From positions 54,192,910-54,256,909 of the forward strand of contig OY735213.1 of the NCBI GenBank assembly GCA_963457665.1: a stretch of DNA of 64,000 nucleotides, in the 5' to 3' direction. Positions 16,811 through 64,000 of this stretch are shown piece after piece (positions within the stretch are counted from its first letter, which is position 1; every line of letters starts with the position of its first letter). Origin of the DNA: Thysanoteuthis rhombus (taxonomy: Eukaryota > Mollusca > Cephalopoda > Oegopsida > Thysanoteuthidae). Both the position numbers and the translations under genes were made by a program. The notes beneath the pieces are model-generated. The model was not told the origin of the DNA, did no database searches, and saw only the letters and a list, made by a program, of their open reading frames with translations.

Positions 16811-18040
16811 TCATCATCATCATCAACATCACTCTTTTAACGTCCGTCGTTGGACATAGACCTTCCCCAGGATTCGTTTCAGAGCCAGTATTTCCTGAAT
16901 CTGTCTAGTTCATCTCTCCATCTTGTGTTCTGTCGGCCTCGGTTTCTTATGTGATTTCTGGGGATCCATGTTGTGAGACGTGATGTCCATCGGTTGTCTT
17001 TCATTCTTTCAACATGGCTTGCCCATTGCCATTTGAGCTTTTTGATAATTTCTATGATGTCACAGACACCCGTTTTCTTCCTTATATATTATGCTGTCTT
17101 GTGATCTCTCTATGTAAGGTTGAGCATGATTCTCTCATGCGCACGTTGCATGCTTCTCAGTTTGTAGGTCTATCTCTTGGTTAGGTTCCATGTTTCAGGT
17201 CCATAAGTGACTATCGAGAGAATGCATTGGTTGTATACTCTTCTTTTAGGGATTATTGGGATCATCTGGTTCTGGAAAGTTGAGCTTGCTCTGCCGAAGG
17301 CTTGCCATCCCAAAGTGATTCTTCGCTTGATTTCCTCCTCTTTTGAGGGTCTCATGGAGATTCGTTGTCCTAGGTTGATGTAGTGGTCTACTTTGCCGAA
17401 TTTTGCATTTTCTATCTTGACAGTTATGTTCTTATTCTCAACAGGATTATTGCTCATGATTTTCGTTTTACTGAAGTTCATGTGTAGGCCGACTTTTTTG
17501 CTTTCTTTGTTTAGATCGTCTAGCATTTGTTGGAGATCATGTAGGTTCTCTGCGAAAAGGACGACGTCGTCTGCAAATCTAATGTTGCTCAAATATTCGC
17601 CGTCTATTTTGATTCCTCTGTTTTCCCAGTCCATGTTTCGGAAGATCAAGGCAGGTTGTAAAGAGTTTGGGTGAGCTGGTATCACTTTGTCTTACTCCTT
17701 TTTGGAGCTGAAACAGTTCAGAGTCCTTATGTAGCCTAATGAAGGAGTTGCTGTGGTTGCATATGTGTTGCAGTACTTTAACGTATACAGGGTCTACACC
17801 TTGTAGGGTAATCACCTTCATGACTATGGGAATTTCTACCGAGTCGAATGCCATCTTGAAGTCTATAAATGCTGCAGCGAGTGGCATTTTGTATTCTGCT
17901 GCTTTCTCTTTCTGTTGATTTATTGAATGAAGATGGTCCATGGTCGAGTAACTTCTTCTAAATCTAGCCTGTTCTCGCGGTCGGTTTTCGTATACTGTTT
18001 TAGTAATCCGGTTGGTGATGATTTTTGTGCATTAGCGTGA
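16811..18040 (-). pseudogene. RTE/jockey-like LINE, RT and C-terminal region, broken
   Basis: This is the longest copy of the family in the window, read on the minus strand. From upstream: an EQARFRRSYSTMDHLH-type block, AFIDFKMAFDSV (RT motif A, with the conserved D) and QKGVRQSDTSSP, where the usual QG(D) context is altered. A frameshift near 17580-17680 follows. Then come IRFADDVVLFAENL (FADD catalytic motif intact), HMNFSKTKIM, the KEEEIKRRITLGWQAFGRAS block and SIVTYGPETWNLTKR. The segment below 17170 is further frameshifted down to a short (CAT)n/(GAT)n end. The element would supply the reverse transcriptase of a non-LTR retrotransposon. The endonuclease part is absent, so this is 5'-truncated and inactive. 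The clade is not settled; RTE or jockey-like is an estimate from motif flavour. Confidence 0.9.
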
Positions 18041-23624: not shown

Positions 23625-24560
23625 CTTCTCCACCAAGGGCGTCGGCTACCACTTTTCTTGAGAGGGGCAACAGGATATATTCCGGGGGTGGAAATCAGGC
23701 AAAAGTATAAATTTGGAGGGAGAGAGTCGAAAAGATATGTATCCGAGTGTTGGTTGTCCGATGAAGGACTAATCATCATCATCATCAGTCTTTTAGCGTC
23801 CGTCGTTGGACATAGACCTTCCCCAGGATTTGCCACACTTCTCTATCATGGGCGTCACGGAGCCAGTACTTCCTGAACTTATCTAGTTCATCTCTCCACC
23901 TAATATTTTGCCGGCCTCGGTTGCGCATATGGTCTCGGGGAATCCATGTTGTGAGTCGTGATGTCCATCGATTGTCAGCCATTCTTGCAACATGGCCAGC
24001 CCACCGCCATTTGAGATTTTTTATGGATTCTATGATGTCTCTAACTCTTGTCTTTTCCCGGATGTGTTGTGCTGTTTTGTGGTCTCTCCATGTGAGGCCC
24101 AGCATTATTCTTTCATGTGCACGTTGCATGGTTCTCAGCTTACGGGTCTGTTTCTTGGTTAAGTTCCATGTTTCAGCTCCATAAGTGACTATTGGGAGGA
24201 TGCATTGGTTATACACCCTTCTCTTTAGGATTAATGGGATCTTATTATTTTTGAAGGTTGAGCTAGCTCTGCCAAAGGCTTGCCATCCTAGTGTGATTCT
24301 TCGCTTGATTTCTTCTTCTTTTGAGGGTCTCATGGAGATTCGTTGCCCTAGGTAGATGTAGTGGTCTACTTTCTCGAGTTCTGTGAACTCGTTCTAAGCT
24401 GTCACTGTTCATAGTGACCCCTTGACACCCGACTTCTATAAGGTTCCAACTTTCAAACCGACTCGCCCACGATGAGAAGGTCTGATTCAGAGGAGGGTAA
24501 GCGCCCCTTTTGCACCCCCAACGGACTCCCATGTTCCTGGCCCCGAATCCATACGCGCTT
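23625..24560 (+). repeat. Dispersed repeat family E, interrupted copy
   Basis: The left part (23625-23777) and right part (24374-24560) are collinear with the uninterrupted copy at 44660-45000. Shared words are GGATATATTCCGGGGGTGGA, CCGAGTGTTGGTTGTCCGAT, GAAGGACTA, then ACTCGTTCTAAGCTGTCACT and GGGTAAGCGCCCCTTTTGC. The LINE at 23778-24373 splits it. Confidence 0.75.
23778..24373 (-). pseudogene. RTE/jockey-like LINE C-terminal fragment, open frame
   Basis: The minus strand is open for about 182 codons (24333 to 23785). It contains KEEEIKRRITLGWQAFGRAS, RRVYNQCILPIVTYGAETWN, a TMQRAHERIMLGLTWRDH block, LKWRWAGHVARMADNRW, TTWIPRDHMRNRGRQN, an RWRDELDKFRKYWLRDAHDR block and a YVQRRTLKD end. These follow the RT thumb in this LINE family; no catalytic domain is included. 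It ends in a short (GAT)n on the minus strand. The open frame suggests a relatively young insertion. It is 5'-truncated, so not a functional gene. Confidence 0.88.
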
Positions 24561-52099: not shown

Positions 52100-53290
52100 G
52101 TTGCTGCCATCATCATCATCATCATCCTGAGTCTGTATGTGACCACCAGTTGCCTGATGGTCCTTGCTGAGTGACAGCAAGTCTCCTCAAGTCTCCAGTC
52201 CACCTATCAACATTCTCACAGTCTACAGCAGAGTTGTAGTTTGCATATTCTAATCCGATGTATAGCAGTCATTGCTGAAGGCAACAACAATAAGTTTTCT
52301 CAGGTCTCCAGCCCTCCACGCAGCGTCCTCGTTAATTACAACAGTGCTGTGGCTTGTACTATTACAACCCTCCCCGCTTTTCTAAAATGTATGCCATGTT
52401 CTTTCCAGTTATTAGACAACTGTCAAATGCTAGAGGACCCTTAGTCTCTAATTTCCAGTACTCTCCTCGGTACCCTTGCAGCAGTGCTGGGGTCTGCAGA
52501 GTCTCGATTTTTACTCTTATCCTTAACCCATCGAATCTTGATTTCAATGTATATGGTACTGTTCCCAATGCGTCTACTTTTATTGGCACCACCTTCGTCC
52601 TCGTGTTCATATCTTTCTCAGTACCCCAGGCCGTCCTGGCACTTTCCCAGCTTTCCACTCTCTTCCGTATTGGCTATGTGGCCAGCAGGCATAGCCACGT
52701 CTATGATTTGACAGGTTCTCCCTTCCTTGTCCACAACCACCAGGTATGGCCTTGTTGTTTGGTAGGGGTTGGTAGGTTTGGATGTCAAAGCCCAAGACTA
52801 ATTCATAGTTTCTACTTCCAAGGTCAGTATCTAGTTTGTGCTGGTGCAATCTGTCTAAATGTCCGAATTCCAATCGTTTGCATAGTTCCCAGTTTATGGC
52901 TGTCGCTACTCTGTCGTGTCTGTGCCTATACTCTTCTTAGGCTAGCTTGTGGCATTCACTGTTTAAGTAGTTTATCATCTCATCCCTTTCTCCACGGAAT
53001 CGGCATTTGCTGTTTTTCTGGGTTCTGTCAATCTTCTCCATAGTTTGTCCAAATGCATTTGCTTTGGGCTGTTATGATGAGGGATTATGTTTCTCTTTTC
53101 AGGCGTCCTTCGCGTAACCATGCCCATGGTCGTTCGTCAACTATATTTACTATCTGTCTTTTGAATTCGCCATGGATTTTATCTTCTGTTCCTATTTTCT
53201 GTCCTTGTTATTTTCTTTACAGCTACCTTTTTATTGTTTTTGGCACAAATTCGAGTGCTTTTGTTGTCATTATCGTTTATAATATTAATC
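52100..53290 (-). pseudogene. 5'-truncated RLE-type LINE (same family as 58.6 kb)
   Basis: On the minus strand this corresponds to roughly the last 270 residues plus the 3' UTR of the element at 58.6-62.6 kb. The plus-strand shadow translation at 53053-53190 (AVMMRDYVSLF, SPWI) matches the antisense of residues around 950-1000. The region near 52607-52870 covers the part before and into the endonuclease (FDIQT, then a broken RRP..IVD block). Positions 52658-52500 give the TKVVPIKVDALGTVP and RVKIETLQTPALL blocks. Frameshifts disrupt it throughout. Its 3' UTR (52120-52330) contains two tail modules and a 9 bp-stem GCAA hairpin. It is non-functional. Confidence 0.85.
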
Positions 53291-57699: not shown

Positions 57700-57841
57700 T
57701 TCAGTGAGGACCCTCAGAAGTCTGTTGAGAGAGAGAGAGAGAGAGAGTAAACCATAGCACTGCTGGGGACTGCAGAAATGCTGAAAGGAGAGCTGGAGAC
57801 TTGAGAAGATTTGCTGTCACTCAATCTCCAGACATCATGTA

Positions 57842-57872
<31 letters not shown>

Positions 57873-57905
57873 TCTTATCATTAACAATAATAATAATAAT
57901 AATGA
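57700..57905 (+). mobile_element. RLE-type LINE 3' UTR fragment with (AAT)n tail
   Basis: GCACTGCTGGGGACTGCAGA, GAGCTGGAGACTTGAGAAGA, TTTGCTGTCACTCAATCTCC and AGACATCATGTAA precede (AAT)n. This matches the 3' end of the full element at 62.3-62.6 kb, including its CTGGAG/CTCCAG stem. A (GA)n lies at 57727-57747. Confidence 0.8.
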
Positions 57906-58599
57906 TATTAATAATAACAATGCTATTTTGACTACAGGCTGCCCTGGATGATTTTGTTCTGGGCTTAGTTAAAGAAGTTTTCTTTAGATTCTAATGATAC
58001 TTAACGTTTGGCTTTGAGATGAACTCTGATTATCTTCGAACATTCTAATGATATTCTACTTTGGTTGATTATTCTTGATATTTTGATGGTATCTTTGTAC
58101 CTCTGAGATGGTTTTCTTTGTGAGTCTGAGGAATTTTCTCTTGCAATGAGAAGACCACTGCCAAGTCGAAAAAAGTTGTTTTTTCTTAGACCTGCACGTG
58201 GGTAAGTGGAATTAAAATTAAATTTAAAATTATTATATTTATAATTTATATTTCAAAAGGAGTTGTCCCATAGAAGTATAGAAAAGCGAGGGGCGAGTAT
58301 ATATATATATGTGTGTGTGAATGAACTTTTCCACTTGCAACCTCCTCCCCCCCCCCGCCCCCGAGATTAGTATAGTATAAATTGGCGGTGGCCGCTTGGC
58401 CATCTATCTACCCAGCGGGCATTGGAAGAAGAAGAAGAAGAAAAAAAACAACGAATATCGAAACTTATACTAAGTCAAGACTTATAACATTTAAGGGAGA
58501 CATATGATCTTTTATGCACGCAACCCCCCCCCTCCCCAAGAAAAAGGCTTAGTGTTATTTCTTTAGTTCAACAATCAGGCAAATGTCATATCACTAGAT
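57906..58599. other. Unassigned spacer upstream of the full-length LINE
   Basis: AT-rich with C-runs near 58345 and 58525. The 5' boundary of the element lies near the end of this stretch but could not be fixed. Confidence 0.4.
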
Positions 58600-58661
58600 A
58601 GATATCTCTGCAAGCCTGAATGGCTTGTCCTTGTGAGGCCATACCCTGGGTGGTAGGAGCT

Positions 58662-58833
58662 GGTGGGGCTCTTTGATTACCACTGTGCATATAGGTCTCA
58701 ATGAACCCACCAAGGTATGGCGCTACCTTAAAAGAACCAAAAGGGCCGGTGGGGCTCTTGGGCTATTTCCGACTCACATTGGTCTTAACCAACCCACCAA
58801 GGTCTGGTACTACCTCCAAAGAACCAAAAACCC
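58662..58833. repeat. 86 bp tandem duplication in the element's 5' region
   Basis: Two units each start GGTGGGGCTC and carry a CACCAAGG.(T/C)TGG block and CCAAAGAACCAAAA-like ends. The 86 bp period is not a multiple of three, so the repeat is unlikely to be coding. A further 69 bp in-frame duplication (CAGGAGGGAC..., at 58932 and 59001) lies downstream. Confidence 0.75.
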
Positions 58834-61800
58834 CAATCATGACAGTACAACCAAACCATTTTACCGCAAAAAACGGGGCACAGATCCAAGACCTGTGTGT
58901 CGTAACCGGCAGGTGTTCCCTTGTTAGCCACCAGGAGGGACCCGGTCGTCATCCTGTGACTGCTGGCCAAAATCTCGGCTCGTGTACCCTTAATGGCCTT
59001 CAGGAGGGACACAGTCGTCACACAGCTACTGTTGGCCAAAACTCGTATACCACTAGCGATATCCAGGGGAAGCGCAGTCCTCATGGGGCGACTGCTATAA
59101 AGAACAAGAGAAAGAGATGGACAAGGGAAGAGAATAGACTAGTTATGTACTGTTACTATAAAAGCAAGCCTTCAGTGCGATCTTATAGGGAGCGTATGCT
59201 CCAAATATGGAGGGAAAAATCTGCTGTGGGAGTATCGAACCAACGCCTTGCTGACCAAGTAAAGCAAATTCAGAAGAAGAAATGGTTGTCTGAGACTGAA
59301 CTACTAGAGATTCGCATTAATGTAGAGAGAGATTCAGGTGACACATCTGAAAAATGCCCCCCCAGCACAACTAGTACCAATAACAAAACTAGAATAATCC
59401 CCCATGAGACCCCCACAGTAAGCTACGCACCAGAGGGTGATGACGAGGCACCAACGGAAGAAGAGAAAAGCAAAATACAAGCTTTGAAAGAGATCATGCG
59501 AGGAGAGAAAACAACACTCCCCTCCCTAAGAGACAAAGACAGAAAGAAAGTCGGAGAAGTGACCGAACAGGTCAACTGCCTCTTACAGCACATAGAAACA
59601 GACACCCTCCTAGAACTCAACAACCTAATTTATGCAGGGGCGAAAATGGTAGCACAAAGCTTCACAACACAAGATAGGAACCTGGGCACTAATAGGGAAG
59701 GGAAACCCAACTGGGAGAGAAGGTTACAAAGGCAGATCTCCCAACTACAGAGAGACGAAGTACTGCTTAGAAATACACCACACACAGACAGACCACGAGT
59801 AAGACTTTATAACAAATATAAGGTAGCGCAAAAAGGCATCGCAACTGTAGTCGAAGAGTTACACCAGAAAAGACTAGCTAAAGAGGCAAGACTAAAAAGA
59901 TACAGACTAAGATCGGCCCAATACACACAAAACCGCACATTCCAAAACAATGAGAAAAAGTTTTACCAAGATTTAAATGGGGAAAGAAGGCATGACATAA
60001 AACCAGATGCCACAGAGGCCAAGAACTATTGGAATAGCATATGGGGGCACCCAAAAAGACACAATGTAACACCGCAATGGTTAGGAAACATGAGAAAAGA
60101 ACTAGAAAATATAGACAAGGGAGAACCAATAGTACTGAATGAAACCACATTGAAACATACTCTTAGGAAAGTAGCCAACTGGAAAGCACCGGGTCCCGAC
60201 GGGATCCATGGGTATTGGTTCAAAAAGTTCACCACGTTACACGGCAGACTCACCCACCTACTCCAAAATTGTCTAAATGAAGGCAAAGCACCAGAATGGA
60301 TGACTAAAGGCAGAACCACCCTCATCCAAAAAGACCTGGGGAAGGGGAACATAGCAAGCAACTATAGACCAATCACTTGCCTACCACTTATGTGGAAAAT
60401 CCTGACCGGGCAAATAGCAGAGAGAATATACATGTCAATGGATAGAAGGGGGCTACTACCAGAAGAACAGAAAGGGTGTAGGATAGGAACCAAAGGGGCA
60501 AACGATTTACTCTACATAGACCAGATGATCTTAAAAGAAGTAAGGAAAAGGAGAAAGAATATCGCAATGGGATGGATAGATTACAAAAAGGCATACGATA
60601 TGATTCCACATAGCTGGATACTCGAATGCCTTAGAATGTTCAAAATTAGCGAACCGGTGGTTAAATTTATTGGTAATTCAATGAAAGACTGGAAAGTAGA
60701 TTTGACAGCCGCGGGGGACAAACTAGCCGAGGTAGGGATAAAAAGGGGAATCTTCCAAGGAGACTCGTTGTCCCCACTATTATTTGTTCTAACAATGATA
60801 CCGCTTAACAGAATCCTGAGAAACAGCAAAGGATACCACTTCTCTAAAACAAAAGGAAAGGTCAACCACTTAATGTACATGGACGATATTAAATTGTTTG
60901 CAAAAAACAGGGGAGAGCTTGAGACTCTGTTCAACGAAGTAAGGGAATATAGTGAGGACATAGGAATGGAGTTTGGGATAGAAAAATGCGCAATCATGGT
61001 GATGCATAAAGGAAGGCTTTCAATGACTGAGGGAATTGAACTTCCGGACAACAACAAGATTAGGGCATTGACTGCACAAGACCGATACAAGTACCTAGGT
61101 GTCCTTGAATGTGACACGATAAAACGGGAAGAGATGAAGGAGAAAATTAAGAGAGAATACCTCAGAAGGATAAAGAAAATATTAGAAACCAAATTAAATA
61201 GCAGAAATCTAATAAAAGGAATGAACACCTGGGCTGTGTCAGTAGTTAGGTATACAGGACCATTCCTAGGATGGACAAAGGAAGAGCTCCAATCAATGGA
61301 TAGGCGAACAAGGAAACTTATGACGATGCATAAAGCATTACATCCTAGGGATGATACAGATAGACTATACGTTAAGAGAAAAGAAGGTGGTAGGGGGCTC
61401 ATCAGCATAGAAGATTGTGTCCAGAGAGCTAAAGTAGTCCTAGATAGACATGTGCAAACAAATAGTGAAGAAATCATAAAGAGCGCGAGGGATAGTGCGA
61501 CAAACAATAAAGTAGAAAACAATGGAACAGTACAGCAAACTAGAAAAGAAAAGTGGGAAGGGAAAAAATTGTACGGCGAGTTTAAAAGACAGATAAAAGA
61601 TATAGCAGACGAGAAATCATGGACGTGGTTACGAAAGGGAAACCTTAAGAGAGAAACAGAATCGCTCATCATGGCAGCCCAAAACAAAAGCATAAGGACA
61701 AACTACATAAAAGCAAAAATCGATAGAACACAGACAAACAGCAAATGCCGCATGTGCGGTGAAAGAGATGAGACAGTAAACCACATAACTAGTGAATGTA

Positions 61801-62312
61801 GCCAACTCGCCCAGAAGGAGTATAAGCATAGACACGATAGAGTAGCAACGATGATACACTGGGAACTAAGTAAACAAATGGGATTCAACCATGGGGAAAA
61901 GTGGTATCAGCACAAGCCAGAGGCAGTTTTGGAGAATGACAACCACAAACTACTGTGGGACTTTGACATCCAAACTGACCACCTCATCCAGGCAAGAAGG
62001 CCGGATTTAGTAATAGTAGACAAAAAAAGGAGGGCCTGCCAAATAGTAGACGTTGCTGTACCTGCAGACCATAGAGTAAAGAAGAAGGAGGGTGAGAAAA
62101 GGGAAAAATACCAGGACCTAGCAAGGGAGTTAAAGAAAATGTGGAACATGAAAACCAGGGTAGTACCGGTCATAGTGGGAGCACTGGGAACTGTCCCCGA
62201 AACGCTGAGGGAGAGACTGGAGGAGATCGGGATTAGGGGGAGGATAGAGACCGTACAGACCACGGCACTGCTGGGCACTGGACGGATACTGAGGAGGGTG
62301 CTAGAGATATAA
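58701..62312 (+). CDS. Reverse transcriptase/endonuclease polyprotein of the LINE
   Basis: This is one uninterrupted frame of 1203 codons. Residues about 135-200 form a basic, Myb-like helical region starting RWTREENRLVMYCYYKSKP (W140), a likely DNA-binding segment. The RT domain spans roughly 485-830: NWKAPGPDGIHGYWF (W494), motif A GWIDYKKAYD (D627), FQGDSLSPL (686-693) and the catalytic YMDD (726-729). All key aspartates are present. A CCHC knuckle, C1016-x2-C1019-x8-H1028-x4-C1033, follows. The C-terminal endonuclease has RPD (D1102) and D1117 in CQIVDVAVPAD, with a downstream KREKYQDL block, and the protein ends ...TALLGTGRILRRVLEI. It would nick DNA and prime cDNA synthesis from the element RNA. 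The first ATG lies inside the 86 bp 5' duplication, so the next ATG (58839, residue 47) is the more likely start. It appears intact and may be competent. Confidence 0.92.
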   Translation: MNPPRYGATLKEPKGPVGLLGYFRLTLVLTNPPRSGTTSKEPKTPIMTVQPNHFTAKNGAQIQDLCVVTGRCSLVSHQEGPGRHPVTAGQNLGSCTLNGLQEGHSRHTATVGQNSYTTSDIQGKRSPHGATAIKNKRKRWTREENRLVMYCYYKSKPSVRSYRERMLQIWREKSAVGVSNQRLADQVKQIQKKKWLSETELLEIRINVERDSGDTSEKCPPSTTSTNNKTRIIPHETPTVSYAPEGDDEAPTEEEKSKIQALKEIMRGEKTTLPSLRDKDRKKVGEVTEQVNCLLQHIETDTLLELNNLIYAGAKMVAQSFTTQDRNLGTNREGKPNWERRLQRQISQLQRDEVLLRNTPHTDRPRVRLYNKYKVAQKGIATVVEELHQKRLAKEARLKRYRLRSAQYTQNRTFQNNEKKFYQDLNGERRHDIKPDATEAKNYWNSIWGHPKRHNVTPQWLGNMRKELENIDKGEPIVLNETTLKHTLRKVANWKAPGPDGIHGYWFKKFTTLHGRLTHLLQNCLNEGKAPEWMTKGRTTLIQKDLGKGNIASNYRPITCLPLMWKILTGQIAERIYMSMDRRGLLPEEQKGCRIGTKGANDLLYIDQMILKEVRKRRKNIAMGWIDYKKAYDMIPHSWILECLRMFKISEPVVKFIGNSMKDWKVDLTAAGDKLAEVGIKRGIFQGDSLSPLLFVLTMIPLNRILRNSKGYHFSKTKGKVNHLMYMDDIKLFAKNRGELETLFNEVREYSEDIGMEFGIEKCAIMVMHKGRLSMTEGIELPDNNKIRALTAQDRYKYLGVLECDTIKREEMKEKIKREYLRRIKKILETKLNSRNLIKGMNTWAVSVVRYTGPFLGWTKEELQSMDRRTRKLMTMHKALHPRDDTDRLYVKRKEGGRGLISIEDCVQRAKVVLDRHVQTNSEEIIKSARDSATNNKVENNGTVQQTRKEKWEGKKLYGEFKRQIKDIADEKSWTWLRKGNLKRETESLIMAAQNKSIRTNYIKAKIDRTQTNSKCRMCGERDETVNHITSECSQLAQKEYKHRHDRVATMIHWELSKQMGFNHGEKWYQHKPEAVLENDNHKLLWDFDIQTDHLIQARRPDLVIVDKKRRACQIVDVAVPADHRVKKKEGEKREKYQDLARELKKMWNMKTRVVPVIVGALGTVPETLRERLEEIGIRGRIETVQTTALLGTGRILRRVLEI

Positions 62313-62367
62313 GGACTGCAACGAATCGTAGCTCTGTCATGATATGCGAAAGAGAGAGGAGACGTTA

Positions 62368-62545
62368 GCTGAAGACCTGAGGAGACTTATTGTCACTCAG
62401 CCTTCAGCGATAACCACTGGGCAACCGGTGTGAAACTGTAAATCGCAAAATTACTGCGATCTATGAGTACGAGGAGAGGAGGGCTGGAGACTTGAGGAGA
62501 CTTGCTGTCACTCAAACTCCAGCGGTTACCACCAGGCAACTGGTG
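62368..62545 (+). ncRNA. Repeated 3' UTR stem-loop modules
   Basis: Each of the two modules has an outer stem and a compact hairpin. Outer stems: GCTGAAG/CTTCAGC (62368-62374 with 62402-62408) and GCTGGAG/CTCCAGC (62483-62489 with 62517-62523), with the A-U pair replaced by G-C. Compact hairpins: CACTGG-GCAA-CCGGTG (62415-62430) and CACCAG-GCAA-CTGGTG (62530-62545). Paired changes that keep the stem argue for a conserved RNA structure. It lies where the RT would recognise its template. Annotated as a cis-acting structure, not a separate gene. Confidence 0.65.
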
Positions 62546-62554
62546 TGAGATTCC

Positions 62555-62596
<42 letters not shown>

Positions 62597-62597
<1 letters not shown>

Positions 62598-62996
62598 GCA
62601 AGATTGGAAAAACTAGGGCTGAAAGGAAGGATCGAGACTATACAGACCACTGATGGGGACTGCACGAATACTGTGGAAAGTACTAAAATATGAGATCGAC
62701 GACTCCTACTGTTAGCAGTGGCTAACAGAGAGAAGGAAAAAAAACAGAAAAAAACACTCCAACCACCACAAATGCTGGAGGAGGGGCTAGCCACTGCGCT
62801 GCAGTGATAGGTGAAGGTGAAATGAGAGGAGGGCTGGAAACCCAAGGAGACTTACTGTCACTCAGCCCTCAGCGATAACCACCGGATAACCGGTGTGAAA
62901 GTGCAAATCATAGCACTGCTGTGGACTGTGAAAGTGTTGAGAAGAAGGCTGGAGACCTGACTCACTCCATCTGTGACCACCAGGCAACAGGTGTGA
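62597..62996 (+). mobile_element. Second, very short RLE-LINE copy (C-terminus plus 3' UTR)
   Basis: It begins inside the last ~30 codons (RLEKLGLKGRIETIQTT), directly after the (AAT)n of the full element, then has a broken end and its own 3' UTR. The hairpin CACCGG-ATAA-CCGGTG sits at 62880-62895. It is severely 5'-truncated. Confidence 0.85.
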
Positions 62997-64000
62997 AAAT
63001 ACATAAAGAACAGGGAAGAACTCGAGATGCTGTTCAACCAAGTGAAGGGATACAATGATGACATTGGGACGGAGTTTGGAATAGAAAAAATGTGCAATTA
63101 TAGTAATGCACCAAGGAAGGCTCGAAGCGGCAGAAGGAATCGAACTTCTGGACAGCAGGAAGATTAGAGCACTGTCCACACAAGACCGATACAAATACCT
63201 CGATGTTCTCGAATGTTTCACGTTCCTAGGAAGAACTCCAATCAATGGACCGACGATCAAGGAATCTTATGACAATGCACAAAGCCTTACACCCAAGAGA
63301 TGATACGGGCATACTACACATGAAGAGAAAAGGTGGCAGAGGGCTCATCAACATAGAAGACTGTGTCCAGAGAGCTAAAGCAGATCTATAAAAAAAATAT
63401 GTACAAGCAAACAGTGAAGACATCATAAGGAGTGTCCGAAGTAGCGCAACGATCAACAAAAAAGTAGAAAACAATGGAGCAGCACAGCAAACAAGAAAAG
63501 AAAAATGGGAACAGAAAAAAAATTATTCGGAGGATTTAAAAACAGATACAGAATGTGGCAGACGAGAGATTATGGACATGGCTACGAAAAGGAAACCTGA
63601 TGAGAGAAACGGAATCGCTCATCATAGCAGCTCAAAATTAATGCATCAGGACAAACAGTATCGAAACAAAAATCGACAGAACACAGACAAACAGCAAGTG
63701 CCGCCTGTGTAGTAAAAGAGATGAGACCGTAAACCACGAAACTAGTGAATGTAGTCAACTCACCCAGAAGGAGTATAAGCACAGACACGATAGAGTAGCA
63801 ACGGTAATACACTGGGAACTGAGTAAACGAATGGGATTTAACCATACGAATAAGTGGTACCAGCACGAACTGGAGACAGCCCTGGAGAATGAAAACCACA
63901 AATTACTTTGGGACTTTGACATCCAAACAGACCACCTCATCCAGGCAAGAAGATCGGATTTTGTATCGTAAAAAAGAGGAAAACCTACCAAATTATAGAC
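62997..64000 (+). pseudogene. Third RLE-LINE copy, 5'-truncated and broken, runs off the window
   Basis: It starts at the equivalent of residue ~734 of the full element (KNREELEMLFNQVKGYNDDI) and continues past the knuckle into the endonuclease. A net deletion of about 150 bp removes the part between DRYKYLDVLEC and the FLG...EELQ block. Multiple frameshifts and stops are present. The knuckle region reads KCRLCSKRDETVNHETSEC, so the cysteine and histidine ligands remain. The endonuclease RPD is changed to RSD and followed by a stop. It is inactive, and its 3' end lies beyond the window. Confidence 0.88.

Follow-up and report, generated by a model that had tools for sequence, protein, structure and literature searches.

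Two differentiated structured units in the 3' UTR of a young R4/Dong-type LINE, a putative R2-like recognition structure

Introduction

In a stretch of 64,000 nucleotides from the genome of the cephalopod Thysanoteuthis rhombus (hereafter, the window), a six-pair hairpin closed by a GCAA loop occurs twice behind a reverse transcriptase (RT) gene, and similar hairpins are found elsewhere in the same stretch. The original prediction was that the sequence changes between these hairpins preserve pairing, and that they may be the element, present twice per LINE, by which an R2-type enzyme recognises its RNA. Several readings have to be told apart: the fold could be recognised by the RT at the target, with both units or just one of them being needed; it could serve some other step; or the preserved pairing could reflect common ancestry only.

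Results

An RLE-type LINE inserted into a TAA repeat

The hairpins do lie, as had been proposed, in the 3' UTR of a LINE, downstream of an open frame with RT, CCHC and RLE. The copy occupies 57869..62554 of the plus strand, with an (AAT)n run on its 5' side and (TAA)14 (62555..62596, plus strand), its target or tail, abutting the 3' end. Homology to two near-full-length copies, L032 and L048, begins at approximately 57869, and the sequence common to these two continues upstream of this point; the window copy probably lacks some 5' sequence. The single open frame (58695..62312, plus strand; 1205 aa from stop to stop) contains the RT (RVT_1 match, E=6e-28), a CCHC motif at aa 1018 and the PD..D motif of a C-terminal RLE at aa 1103. 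Its best PDB match is the R2 protein 9nl2 (E=7e-24), the other matches being to R2, L1 and others, and when the C-terminal 240 aa are searched by themselves they still match 9nl2, in its zinc-knuckle and endonuclease part (E=4e-4), in agreement with the predicted R2-type enzyme.

Near the start of the open frame there are two tandem duplications (58659-58742 with 58745-58829, 77%; 58907-58977 with 58976-59045, 76%). In the near-full-length copies part of the 5' region is present a second time (L032:850-1086, L048:513-940), as if the 5' UTR were tandem-built. Fragments on the minus strand at 17170-18031 and 23785-24393 look, by eye from their translations, like another RT-bearing LINE family.

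The query 62320-62560 was searched against the window's own genome (2.73 Gb; 1346 candidates, 40 scored). Counting the window's own, at least 40 places in the genome are identical to it over 241/241 bases (41 matches listed), hence the LINE is young; the predicted hairpins are thus present in identical young copies. The TAA-rich run continues beyond the query in all 18 plus-strand loci inspected, out of 30 loci and including the window's own. Twenty copies were fetched at 6 kb; 18 of them share the 3' end and have lost differing lengths of 5' sequence, and two extend past the 5' start of the window copy. The LINE is therefore young, recently active and inserts into TAA repeats, as reported for R4/Dong elements; the insertions examined lie mostly in TAA repeats and not in the 28S rDNA that is the target of the R2 clade. 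A search of viral_contigs, from which records of this genome are possibly excluded, found no relatives.

Elements of this family also insert into or beside the TAA tails of other copies, producing nested tandem clusters (57783-57921 and 62597-64000 in the window; L012, L015, L019, L022, L042, L045 and L046 elsewhere).

Fold of the 3' UTR

The 3' UTR (62313..62554, plus strand), which recurs in the 40 identical places, contains two structured units and folds better than shuffled controls (z -4.4; 1 of 200 shuffles is as good). The units are 70 nt long and lie 115 nt apart. In each, P1 (7 bp), P1b (5 bp) and P1c (3 bp) form a stack interrupted by small internal loops, and P2, a 6-bp hairpin usually with a GNRA loop, comes after it. 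In unit A (62365..62434, plus strand) P1 is formed by 62368-62374/62402-62408, P1b by 62377-62381/62396-62400, P1c by 62384-62386/62392-62394 and P2, with a GCAA loop, by 62415-62420/62425-62430. In unit B (62480..62549, plus strand), which adjoins the insertion target, the corresponding stems are 62483-62489/62517-62523, 62492-62496/62511-62515, 62499-62501/62507-62509 and 62530-62535/62540-62545, the last again with GCAA. The P2 hairpins of the two units, CACTGG-GCAA-CCGGTG at 62415-62430 and CACCAG-GCAA-CTGGTG at 62530-62545, read as originally quoted, and the longer stem GCTGRAG/CTYCAGC of the prediction is P1. A further hairpin, P0, absent from that description, is located in the linker (62442..62460, plus strand; 62442-62447/62455-62460); it is ATCGCA/TGCGAT in the young family, and at the same position older families have CCACAG/CTGTGG. 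No relevant Rfam family matched.

Sixteen of the 70 positions differ between units A and B, seven of them in stems, and these seven amount to three two-sided changes and one C-G/U-G change, so that each unit keeps 21/21 pairs (p=1.4e-4 under a random-change null, p=0.029 under a transition-only null). Compared with shuffled controls, the fold has z -4.5 for A, -3.3 for B and -2.6 for C; for the other five copies in the window it is not convincingly above shuffles (z from -1.4 to +0.35). Lone 6-bp GNRA hairpins are not rare, with 18 on both window strands if G-U is allowed, and hence the evidential weight rests on recurrence. The predicted GCAA loop is common and not fixed: among distinct rows, 61 of 80 for unit A and 57 of 66 for unit B have a GNRA loop. 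A kissing contact of the unit B loop UUGCU with GCAA was considered and dropped, as unit A has UUAUU or UUACU while GCAA is mostly kept.

Older copies in the window carry the same units. An older diverged copy, with genome relatives 76-88% identical, has unit A at 62830..62899 (plus strand), including the quoted hairpin CACCGG-ATAA-CCGGTG at 62880-62895, and unit B with an internal deletion at 62945..62997 (plus strand; 35.7 bits). On the minus strand, a decayed copy whose ORF fragment lies at 53209-52479 has unit A at 52250..52315 (31 bits) and unit B at 52140..52194 (39.4 bits), the latter with the nine-pair GCAA hairpin 52162-52141, GACCATCAGGCAACTGGTGGTC, exactly as predicted. Finally, the decayed 3' end of an older element is found at 57789..57843 (plus strand; 42.2 bits), and the (AAT)n after it is the insertion site of the present LINE.

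Arrangement of the two units across the genome

Exact matches to a 19-nt core of unit B number 16,516 (8123+8393) genome-wide, and its reversed pattern does not occur at all. Sixty copies were fetched from the first 100 core places listed, close neighbours and the tail of the list being left out. A TAA-type tail was present within 40 nt in 46 of these, and 54 have an upstream unit approximately 115 nt away, bearing out the predicted presence of the structure twice per element. The units were also found in 20 of 20 fetched loci of the older family (76-88% identity to the copy at 62830) and in 18 of 20 loci reached through a 67-78% diverged relative. Three decayed copies (L018, L031, L035), whose ORF C-termini show about 51-71% protein identity, still have the units downstream. 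An origin of the module from a SINE was considered as well; copies read upstream look LINE-derived.

In favour of a passive tandem duplication, with just one unit being needed, is some variation in the number of units: six of the 60 sampled copies have no unit about 115 nt upstream, and both a three-unit copy (L052) and a one-unit copy (L133) exist. The 115-nt spacing nevertheless prevails, being exact in 126 of 165 deduplicated pairs of adjacent units less than 260 nt apart (141 of 176 with overlapping loci counted twice). Also contrary to passive duplication, both units are paired above the null expectation (see below), and they stay distinct. A tree was built of 167 distinct units (383 rows, those having more than eight gaps left out), and on it the A/B label switches twice, compared with 48 times when labels are shuffled (minimum 41 in 200 shuffles); hence the duplication predates the sampled subfamilies, with no homogenisation between the units. 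A and B thus represent old and separate lineages, and we regard a passive duplication as unlikely.

In L052:106-387 the three units are at 115-nt spacing, the third one with a deletion. L133, one of 20 loci picked through the ORF end and unit A, has its single unit before (AAT)n, and its junction (L133:200-279) resembles the end of unit B; a recombinant of A and B, or an older one-unit form, is possible.

Position of the units relative to the priming site

Two units per element, as predicted, are indeed found, and they are not interchangeable: unit B, and hardly ever unit A, adjoins the target, with L133 as the exception. A microsatellite starts within 45 nt downstream of 117 of 151 B-type and 1 of 102 A-type units examined, most loci in this count having been chosen through queries that contain unit B. 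The sole A-type case, in L147, occupies the downstream position in its copy; L133 fell outside the count by a length filter, since its match ends at model position 61. The letters between unit B and the microsatellite vary among many loci (ATTCC, ATTCCA, ATTGCA, ATTCCAA and others), so that reverse transcription may have some slight flexibility in where it begins.

We consider it probable that this R4/Dong-type LINE uses the fold for target-primed reverse transcription, as a 3' UTR recognition structure of the R2 kind, in an unusual form with two differentiated units. By analogy with R2, the RT most likely binds unit B and primes on TAA. In such a scheme, the element's own RT would bind the fold, and unit B would bring the 3' end of the RNA to the nicked TAA site, from which target-primed reverse transcription would proceed; unit A, in our guess, could make a second contact with the protein or engage another protein.

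The fold could instead serve another step, such as RNA stability, export, translation or packaging, rather than recognition by the RT at the target. Selection on pairing, considered in the next section, says nothing of the partner, and unit A, which hardly ever adjoins the target, need not act in priming. Against this, the fold lies immediately beside the priming site and is retained in copies truncated to less than 500 nt (L034, L041), and there is the precedent of R2 as described in PMC12180492. A role in another step seems to us quite improbable.

Covariation and selection on pairing

For units A, B and C alone, the covariation score was reached by 36 of 500 shuffles. In two larger alignments, A2 and A3, 92.2% and 88.7% of cells are paired, with two-sided changes in 10 and 9 pairs, respectively, and shuffling of the 3' letters never reached the covariation score (0 of 500 in each); both alignments had been fitted to the model, with a shuffle control that ignores relatedness. 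Much of this simple signal is one A/B split inherited by many copies.

The ancestry-aware null, in which changes are replaced at random on the tree, gives a different picture. Over the unit, the summed G is not significant (53 of 400; p=0.29 in a later run), contrary to the covariation that had been proposed. Neither are concerted two-sided events in excess (4 observed and 2.4 expected; later 5 and 4.5, p=0.47). Three pairs reach nominal significance only (p=0.034-0.044), and the strongest coupling, between columns 25 and 46, is outside the stem pairs. At the same time, overall pairing exceeds the tree-aware null (0.918 vs 0.723; p=0.002, the smallest possible value), with P1b taken alone having p=0.13. 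We therefore make no claim that the units covary as R-scape would define it.

Similar results were obtained for the whole 3' UTR on 43 distinct rows (58 rows less four out of register and two removed by an identity filter give 52, of which 43 are distinct). Units A and B are each paired above the null (p=0.0033 each), with non-significant G sums (A, p=0.54; B, p=0.30). For P0, pairing is 0.926 vs 0.803 under the null (p=0.013), and G has p=0.040; two of its six pairs have uncorrected tree-aware p=0.007 and p=0.023, and concerted events are not in excess (p=0.21). RNAalifold gave almost no structure on an alignment that contained out-of-register rows, and this result was discarded.

A more direct comparison is that between branches of the tree, as terminal branches represent mostly changes in dead copies, and deep branches, changes in lineages that were still jumping. 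Of 298 stem changes on terminal branches, 90 (30%) preserve the pairing and the other 208 disrupt it, a proportion inside the neutral expectation of 27-35% for a transition bias of 2-4. On branches leading to at least five leaves 13 changes keep pairing, two break it and two restore it (FastTree; Fisher p=1.7e-5), and branches to 2-4 leaves are intermediate (30 kept, 38 broken). The IQ-TREE tree yields 9 kept vs 3 broken on internal branches (p=1.9e-3). In 20 jackknives of 100 rows the kept fraction is 0.84 on internal branches (minimum 0.67) and 0.33 on terminal ones (maximum 0.39). When the changes of each branch are placed at random columns, the kept fraction is 0.40 (sd 0.10, maximum 0.62), and none of 100 such replicates reach the observed 0.87.

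The same tendency is seen for the whole 3' UTR including P0 (103 of 106 distinct rows kept): on branches to at least eight leaves 13 changes keep pairing, two break it and two restore it, compared with 157 kept and 290 broken on terminal branches (p=8e-5). Stem-to-loop rates are 0.93 on terminal branches and 0.27 on those with at least eight leaves. The significance varies with the clade-size cut-off, from p=0.014 to 8e-5 (other cut-offs, 0.014 to 1.9e-4); with at least four leaves, for instance, 22 changes are kept and 16 broken (p=0.0079). Individual pairs illustrate possible paths: 8/40 (G-C, G-U, A-U) and 55/62 (A-U, G-U, G-C) change via wobble, and 13/36 partly via U-G and once via a C-A mismatch that was later restored. 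The linker hairpin P0 demonstrates the same signs of selection as the units.

Thus, pairing is under selection in active lineages, this being seen on few events (15-17) and in one genome. Of the predicted pairing-preserving changes, what stands is this preference on lineage branches (13 kept, two broken), and what does not is site-pair covariation over the unit (p=0.29). That the apparent covariation is ancestry only, ancient A/B and subfamily differences being inherited with no structural selection, agrees with the top coupled columns not being stem pairs and with the non-significant tree-aware statistics for covariation and concerted events, and is already highly improbable given that lineage-branch pairing is far above both the tree-matched null (0 of 100) and the terminal branches, on two tree methods and in all 20 jackknives.

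Discussion

The recognition reading leaves room for a more specific and speculative variant, which we consider doubtful: the 3' UTR could be a two-site docking platform with two functionally different RNA domains, separated long ago, at fixed spacing, where B would prime at the target, and A would serve a second protein molecule or the second-strand step. R2 divides this role between its 5' and 3' RNA; if such a platform existed, the LINE would carry at its 3' end what R2 splits between the two.

The family offers a defined, selected structure in a recently active and very abundant element, and each of the two units can be removed or exchanged on its own. The family would also widen the range of RLE-type RT/template pairs for RNA-templated DNA insertion, with a microsatellite as the target. 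Comparing terminal with lineage branches is of general use as a test for functional pairing in transposons, since it separates such pairing from neutral decay where ancestry confounds covariation.

The window LINE is similar to R4/Dong elements in its one ORF with RT, CCHC and C-terminal RLE, and in its insertion into (TAA)n, the assignment being made from architecture and target. By the usual criterion, a (TAA)n microsatellite target corresponds to Dong, and an rDNA target, to R4. (TAA)n is the reported R4/Dong target in most insects, molluscs and cnidarians, and the same source reports a divergent N-terminal Myb/SANT-like domain for the clade (PMC7998251); a default Pfam scan of the LINE ORF gave no Myb/SANT-like match. 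Dong and R4 are described as carrying an HDV-like 5' ribozyme (PMC3774820); Rfam gave no HDV-like ribozyme match here, with the true 5' end of the window LINE undefined and such ribozymes being diverse. In octopus, Dong-R4 LINEs are reported as abundant, with recent activity (PMC13282606).

With its two 70-nt units and RLE-type architecture, the window LINE differs from the stringent-type LINEs. The tails of the latter are single short stem-loops, and these LINEs are APE-type. In the eel UnaL2 and zebrafish elements, the LINE protein is reported to recognise the 3' stem-loop or tail (PMC4176376, PMC5135761).

With R2, that of Bombyx and of the avian and testudine A-clade, the window LINE shares a structured 3' UTR adjoining the priming site and a related RT and endonuclease, and it differs in the target, which is 28S rDNA in R2 and TAA repeats here. 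The secondary structure just upstream of the priming site is conserved here too, site-pair covariation over the unit not being significant. Structured R2 3' UTRs are reportedly long known, from the work of Mathews in 1997 and Ruschak in 2004. In vertebrate A-clade R2 (avian, testudine), the last 65 nt of the 3' UTR are described as folding into a pseudoknot-hinge-stem and being bound by the protein, with pairing-breaking mutations reducing insertion and compensatory ones restoring it (PMC12180492). The window LINE has two tandem units, each with a stem and a GNRA hairpin, plus the linker hairpin. The literature searched, with subscription papers mostly outside its coverage, gave no account of R4/Dong 3' UTR structure. 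Hence, while structured 3' UTRs are known from R2, a putative recognition structure of the R2 kind in an R4/Dong-type LINE, present in two differentiated copies, appears to be new.
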